Assembly: GCF_900105385.1 (NCBI RefSeq)
Contig: NZ_LT629772.1
Location: 310,001 to 374,000 of the forward strand
Origin: Microlunatus soli
Lineage (GTDB): Bacteria > Actinomycetota > Actinomycetes > Propionibacteriales > Propionibacteriaceae
Reading direction: 5' to 3'
Length of the DNA stretch: 64,000 nucleotides
Shown in pieces: positions 605-795 of the stretch (position 1 is the first letter of the stretch; each line of letters starts with the position of its first letter). The notes beneath the pieces are model-generated. The model saw only the letters and a list, made by a program, of their open reading frames with translations. It was not told the DNA's origin and ran no database searches. Made by a program: the position numbers and the translations under genes.

Positions 605-631
605 CTGTGGCTTGCCGCGTCGAGCAACTTT

Positions 632-791
632 AGCCTTGATCCGCCGATGTGCCGCGTAGCGAGCGGCACCAGACGGGTGCATCGGCGAGGTGCCGCCGCG
701 AGGGCGGTCTGGTTGACCGTTGAGCGGCGGCAACGCCGCCGCTGTGCCCGGATGGGGTCGCGCAGTAGCGGCACATCGGTGGATCGAGGCT
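632..791 (+). ncRNA. Candidate structured RNA element after the HNH gene
   Basis: Positions 632-655 pair with 768-791 over all 24 bases. The two non-Watson-Crick positions (637/786 and 643/780) are G-U wobbles only if the plus strand is transcribed; on the minus strand they would be A-C mismatches. Inside lie a 9-bp hairpin with an AAC loop (723-731/735-743), a 6-bp hairpin (692-697/703-708), a 5-bp hairpin (666-670/676-680) and two competing stems (649-655/663-669; 705-709/715-719). The element sits in the 3' UTR of the HNH gene and ends directly before TAGAAT, a likely -10 box for the next gene. It could be a structured RNA, a small non-autonomous mobile element with terminal inverted repeats, or an elaborate terminator. 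I do not recognise it as a known family. Confidence 0.5.
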
Positions 792-795
792 TAGA

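Follow-up and report, generated by a model that had tools for sequence, protein, structure and literature searches.

Immediately downstream of a gene that had been read as an HNH nuclease of the DUF222/13E12 type, the window (the whole 64,000-nucleotide stretch of Microlunatus soli DNA analysed here) contains a long hairpin. An earlier note, made from the letters of the sequence, had described this hairpin as a candidate for a strand-specific structured RNA that might travel with, or be recognised by, this nuclease family. The locus therefore raises the question of what this structure is, and whether it belongs to the gene beside it.

Extent and fold of the element at the window locus

The element was found to occupy exactly positions 634–789 of the window (156 bp) and to form a very stable hairpin, which is better on the plus strand. 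Folded as plus-strand RNA, positions 625–800 reached -126.8 kcal/mol, and as minus-strand RNA -101.3 kcal/mol (z -11.5 and -9.1, respectively, each against 200 shuffles). Shuffles of this interval gave mean energies of -76.8 (plus) vs -64.8 (minus), and the stability gap between the two strands is partly a matter of base composition. Both sequence and fold bear out the description of a 24-bp closing helix with two non-Watson–Crick pairs, each of them G-U on the plus strand. The hairpin placed at 632–791 is real, but these bounds take in two duplication bases per side, because the element is flanked by 5-bp duplications. Where several perfect hairpins had been proposed, the minimum-energy fold is a single long irregular hairpin. 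The supposed -10 box at the end of the element, TAGAAT at 792–797, overlaps the right duplication, and a consensus scan of 560–860 found no sigma-70-like promoter. A scan of the same interval for intrinsic terminators was also negative, a T-run terminator being absent at the window copy. The parts of the element, with the base counts of the corresponding columns in an alignment of 100 copies, are as follows.

629..633, no strand: left target-site duplication TTTAG, one base different from the right copy (from the sequence)
634..655, plus: left terminal inverted repeat, the 5' arm of the outer stem; its first 15 bp are of IS1380 type (CCTTGATCCGCCGAT)
656..767, plus: conserved core of 112 nt, a predicted structured RNA (from covariation), kept where outer stems differ
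656..663, plus: internal-loop strand GUAGCGAG, holding the GA of a tandem-GA type loop; columns 23–30, with G23 in 99/100, G28 in 99/100 and A29 in 100/100 copies
687..688, plus: AA side of the AA/AAC internal loop, GA in the window copy; columns 54–55, with A in 90/100 and 92/100 copies
700..702, plus: GAN side of the apical tandem-GA type loop; columns 67–69, G 99/100, A 95/100
722..723, plus: GA facing 700–702; columns 89–90, G 96/100, A 100/100
732..734, plus: AAC side of the AA/AAC internal loop; columns 99–101, A 91/100, A 90/100, C 99/100
762..764, plus: GYA facing 661–662; columns 129–131, G 90/100, C 65/100 or T 33/100, A 89/100
768..789, plus: right terminal inverted repeat, the 3' arm of the outer stem
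790..794, no strand: right target-site duplication CTTAG, matching the left copy in 4/5 bases (from the sequence)

Dispersal, mobility and gene neighbourhood

A DNA search of the organism's own genome (6.73 Mb) returned 42 matches, 21 of which align in the element orientation over more than 100 bases; the others are partial matches or arise because the palindrome also matches on the reverse strand. The element was also present in 5 of the 39 other genomes examined. The 100 aligned copies are 155–159 nt long (157 nt in 57 and 156 nt in 27). A covariance model built from 29 copies matched in 95/293 genomes of the order, representing 13/37 genera, in 50/394 genomes of the class (34 of these outside the window's order) and in 10/396 genomes of the phylum (7 of these outside the class); between 7 and 10 candidates were scored per genome, so copy numbers are lower bounds. 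Among the matches listed from a pattern scan of named genomes were Nocardioides, Pimelobacter, Propionibacterium, Pseudonocardia, Streptomyces, Stackebrandtia, Prauserella and others. No match was found in a plasmid collection, nor in viral contigs with a pattern that detects 48/100 known copies.

Membership of a known Rfam family, HEARO or other, was rejected because the window and 20 loci gave 0 matches at the gathering threshold; the best match was weak (E 0.17, 20.5 of 55 bits). A coding function was likewise rejected, as the 100 copies showed no codon periodicity, with no codon position more variable, and their lengths vary from 155 to 159. In 87/100 copies, frame 1 of the minus strand has no stop from one end of the element to the other; open frames are common in DNA as GC-rich as this.

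Aberrant forms were also observed. Locus L009 (G000:C1:994608-994832) holds a full copy with the start of a second directly after it, apparently a tandem insertion with one duplication in common. In the organism's own genome, loci L027-L031 and L035 carry internally deleted forms of 53–91 bp with intact ends, one of them with an exact TTCAG duplication, and these forms may still be mobile without the core. Variants of 206–238 bp with extra core sequence between intact ends were seen at L147-L150 (genome G294), and a further diverged copy (L023:4824-4978, 47 bits) lies about 1.6 kb from the main copy at L023.

Exact 5-bp target duplications flank 42/100 aligned copies, compared with a mean of 9.0 and a maximum of 18 in 2000 shuffled pairings. 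CTNAG accounts for 35 of these 42; TAATA, TGTTA, TTCAA and CTAAA are among the others. The joined flanks of 8 insertions were searched in the sister genomes G287 and G222, and 6 sister sites were read. Exact empty sites were found for 3 of the 8 insertions: the sister sites of L091 and L098 were without the element and without one 5-bp target copy, and that of L096 was without the element and one 4-bp CTAG. The sister site of L085 also had no element, yet fell 11 bp short of the two flanks together; in 1 of the 4 element-free sites the difference thus exceeds one target copy. At the sister site of L084 (L375, G222), an internally deleted copy stands where G287 has the full length, and the core has been lost in place. 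Judged by flank spacing, L095 and L101 were occupied in both sister genomes, and the flanks of L087 lie about 640 bp apart in the sister genome. The features by which a MITE is recognised were thus all found, namely gene-free multicopy dispersal, terminal inverted repeats, target duplication, empty orthologous sites and an autonomous relative with the same ends, a 1649-bp IS1380 element in genome G292. The window element is securely one copy of a non-autonomous transposon (MITE).

Gene positions were taken from a simple gene caller for 125 copies, of which 118 were intergenic and 7 lay inside a called frame. In the 107 copies with a callable neighbour, the gene end within 6 nt of the element edge was a 3' end in 64 and a 5' end in 6. 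Convergent gene pairs outnumbered divergent ones (30 vs 15, p 0.036), and there was no orientation bias to neighbouring genes (++ 23, -- 32, p 0.28). Ordinary read-through would therefore transcribe the minus strand as often, and a regulator of the upstream gene was rejected because of the unbiased orientation.

Two explanations would tie the element to its gene surroundings. Adjacency at the window locus had suggested that the DUF222 HNH protein might have the element as its RNA partner, in the way that IscB has HEARO. The full neighbouring ORF (573 codons) scored 23.3 bits against Pfam DUF222, just below the 24.4 cut-off, and no HNH model reached E 0.001 against it. A homologue of this ORF was present at 0/27 other own-genome loci (tblastn, ~3 kb flanks), and among fetched loci of at least 900 bases the sole tblastn hits were the locus itself and L070 (34% identity). 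The proposal of an RNA travelling with DUF222/13E12 HNH genes was therefore rejected; the structure forms a MITE body, the gene appears to lie beside it by chance, and, with the missing Rfam match also counting against it, an HNH partner RNA has practically no likelihood of being right. An element useful to the host at 3' ends, for example one selected behind genes as a terminator or mRNA stabiliser, would account for the excess of 3' ends at the element edge and of convergent pairs. However, CTNAG and CTAG hold stop codons, which the duplication can restore, so that the position at gene ends may need no more than target choice and the purging of harmful insertions. The unbiased orientation, the lack of a T-run terminator at the window copy, and the patchy presence with empty sites also argue against this explanation, which we consider quite unlikely.

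Ends of the element and the IS1380 family

The end motif CCYNNATCCACCGAT was searched in 8 genomes to pair MITE ends. Among the pairs listed, one in G292 spans 1649 bp and encodes a 464-aa protein, which matched the NCBIfam IS1380 model (NF033539) with 289.5 bits (cut-off 180) and Pfam DDE_Tnp_1_4 with 104.6 bits. By eye, this insertion sequence and the MITE have only their 15-bp ends in common; the G292 copy sits in a palindrome and is without an exact duplication. In 30 IS1380 loci, G292 included, an end scan that favoured CC ends and equal flanks found MITE-type ends at 19 and an exact 5-bp duplication at 16, which was CTNAG at 13. The other 11 loci had neither MITE-type ends nor an exact duplication, several of them being short or at contig ends. 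A variant end, CCTCGATCCGTGGACG, occurs at the IS1380 locus L185 and in a MITE subfamily (L022, L023). IS1380-type ends were present on both sides of 89/100 MITE copies of the order set, the window copy included. Because ends and duplications agree, we infer that an IS1380 transposase is the mover of the MITE. Genome content argues against this mover, as there was no association between the MITE and the transposase: 17 genomes have both, with ~20 expected from 95 and 62 of 293 (Fisher p 0.36). The window's own genome gave no match to an IS1380 transposase, and six loci with MITE-end pairs at other spacings, including L152 with ends 4.7 kb apart, gave no significant transposase match by tblastn. 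In G292, another palindromic repeat (GGCAGGACCCCCGG...) was observed near or around several MITE copies and the IS1380 element (L143-L146, L108, L109).

The remaining 11/100 copies of the order set fall below the threshold for IS1380-type ends, and some are clearly different: L090 and L096 have the ends GGAATCGCTGATCG with CTAG on both sides, L050 and L125 have GGTTCCGCCAGTAGG, and L034 has GGAGNNTGCTGAACAAT. Among copies from other orders, only 1/19 (L196) carries IS1380-type ends, and CTAG stands at both edges of 9/25 copies listed for the class, 6 of these 25 being from the window's own order. The core loops are still recognisable in copies with different ends and in other classes. In other lineages, the elements have probably changed their ends to fit other transposases. 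A partner of the CTAG-type elements, which would be an insertion sequence with GGGTGTGTCTCC-like ends and CTAG duplications, was not found: of 20 regions around end motifs, by eye, 16 were MITE or shortened MITE copies, and 4 (L230, L231, L233, L237) were lone end motifs. At L018:3060-3215 and L049:1501-1656, a same-site insertion was seen in two species, with outer stems that are different yet compensated, and the L049 stem partly repeats the flank ATGCAAGATTA, as expected from template switching.

Strand asymmetry of the RNA fold and its meaning

Compensatory changes in homologues had been suggested as the check on the RNA candidate, and they were found. In 99 distinct copies, the 60-pair fold had 94.5% standard pairs, with change on both sides in 52/60 pairs (36.8 in shuffles, sd 2.6) and a covariation score of 0.463; shuffles scored 0.178 and slid versions no more than 0.084. 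Covariation in the outer stems is also expected from matched ends by themselves, so a strand test was run. Mutation can turn a G-C pair into G·U or into A·C; in DNA both should be equivalent, and minus-strand RNA would prefer A·C. The wobbles were counted on 57 pairs predicted from the minus strand, a choice that favours A·C. The results showed G·U 337 vs A·C 55, with G·U commoner in 42 pair columns vs 7 (p 3.6e-7), the copies being related and the column counts thus non-independent events. In core pairs predicted on both strands, the counts were G·U 242 vs A·C 36. The plus strand was more stable in 99/100 copies of the order, 19/19 of the class and 7/7 of the phylum, and its excess went beyond shuffled composition in 98/100, 19/19 and 7/7, respectively. 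Unpaired positions at GA 28-29, AA 54-55, GA 67-68 and 89-90, and AAC 99-101 are 90–100% conserved, and in our reading two of the core loops have a tandem-GA look. With 52/60 pairs covarying and wobbles favouring plus-strand RNA, selection of the fold as plus-strand RNA appears well supported, and in this respect the earlier reading as a candidate strand-specific structured RNA was upheld by strong covariation among homologues and by the wobble asymmetry. In the outer stem, matched ends or template-switch repair could explain the covariation without RNA selection.

An ordinary MITE, in which the RNA has no function, the hairpin is a by-product of matched ends, and its pairing is maintained by transposase matching together with template-switch repair of quasipalindromes, would agree with the IS1380 match of the ends, the lack of orientation bias, and the common insertion at L018 and L049 with its compensated stems and repeated flank. 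Both causes are strand-blind, however, whereas the core pairs show the G·U excess; the GA, AA, GA, GA and AAC loop bases are conserved, though repair would erase loops; and the core loops persist when the ends differ. This explanation is therefore unlikely. Strand specificity and conserved unpaired bases would also fit a hairpin of single-stranded DNA of which one strand is recognised by, for instance, an HUH/Y1 enzyme, the situation in REP/RAYT and IS200/IS605 elements; G·T pairs are tolerated in DNA too. Against it stand the 4-5-bp target duplications and DDE-type ends, which to our knowledge are not products of Y1 enzymes. In its favour, GTAG-tagged REPs often give flanking ORFs their TAG stop, according to the part of the source consulted (PMC3733652). 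Overall, such a DNA hairpin seems very improbable.

The explanation that we prefer, and hold to be probable, is a 156-bp MITE moved in trans by IS1380-family transposases, with a body that is a selected plus-strand hairpin RNA. The computed support covers dispersal, ends, target duplications, empty sites, covariation and strand asymmetry. The MITE, with no recognisable gene of its own, would be recognised in trans by IS1380-family transposases at its ~15-bp CC(T/C)NNATCC... ends, and transposition would duplicate a 5-bp CTNAG-type target, often at the stop codon of a gene. The body is predicted to encode a conserved hairpin RNA selected as plus-strand RNA, for which read-through or an element-derived transcript is our best guess as the source. 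A conserved actinobacterial RNA-binding protein or ribonuclease may bind the tandem-GA and AA/AAC loops, again as a best guess. With orientation unbiased, the RNA is less likely to serve the gene next to it than to act in trans or at the level of the element itself; our guess is that it acts in trans or on the spread or tolerance of the element, and not on the adjacent gene.

The omega RNA of HEARO/IscB is a structured RNA carried by a mobile element. The IS110 bridge RNA (PMC11208160) is another. The MITE differs from both in having no attached nuclease or recombinase gene, no Rfam match and a DDE-type duplication. It resembles the IS1380 family in its CC(T/C)NNATCC ends and 5-bp CTNAG duplication and differs in lacking a transposase gene. 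RUP, a MITE moved by IS630-Spn1, is similarly short and gene-free, with IS-type inverted repeats and target duplication, in the available part of PMC2229807; unlike RUP, the window MITE is GC-rich with IS1380-type ends, and its body is a strand-asymmetric covarying RNA fold that is recognisable across the phylum despite changed ends. ERIC, Correia/NEMIS, CIR and QMITE are dispersed repeats whose transcripts form long stem-loops, and phylogenetically conserved properties have been described for CIR RNA structures (passages of PMC10969869 and PMC2229807); these passages make no mention of strand-specific covariation or of one RNA core with several kinds of ends. GTAG-tagged REPs are, in the part of PMC3733652 consulted, palindromic and often at stop codons, like the MITE, which is much longer and has target duplications and IS1380-type ends. 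No description of the element was found among the papers listed, judged by title and start of abstract, which does not establish its absence from print.

A broader possibility, which we put forward tentatively, is a mobile RNA of Actinomycetota, in which one selected fold is the cargo of miniature transposons, the ends swap, and the RNA acts in trans via a conserved partner protein. If so, the RNA core, constant in fold and strand, would define the family, and not the ends (IS1380-type with 5-bp CTNAG, others with 4-bp CTAG). Since changes on both sides of a pair arise from matched ends alone, covariation in palindromic repeats calls for the wobble-strand test. The element's sequence, the covariance model and the large set of natural variants provide tools to seek the RNA, its binding partner and the transposase in laboratory actinobacteria. 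Bacterial MITEs are usually seen as passive relatives of insertion sequences; if the strand-specific RNA covariation of the body outlasts changes of ends across the phylum, it would follow that what is selected in a transposon can be a non-coding RNA.
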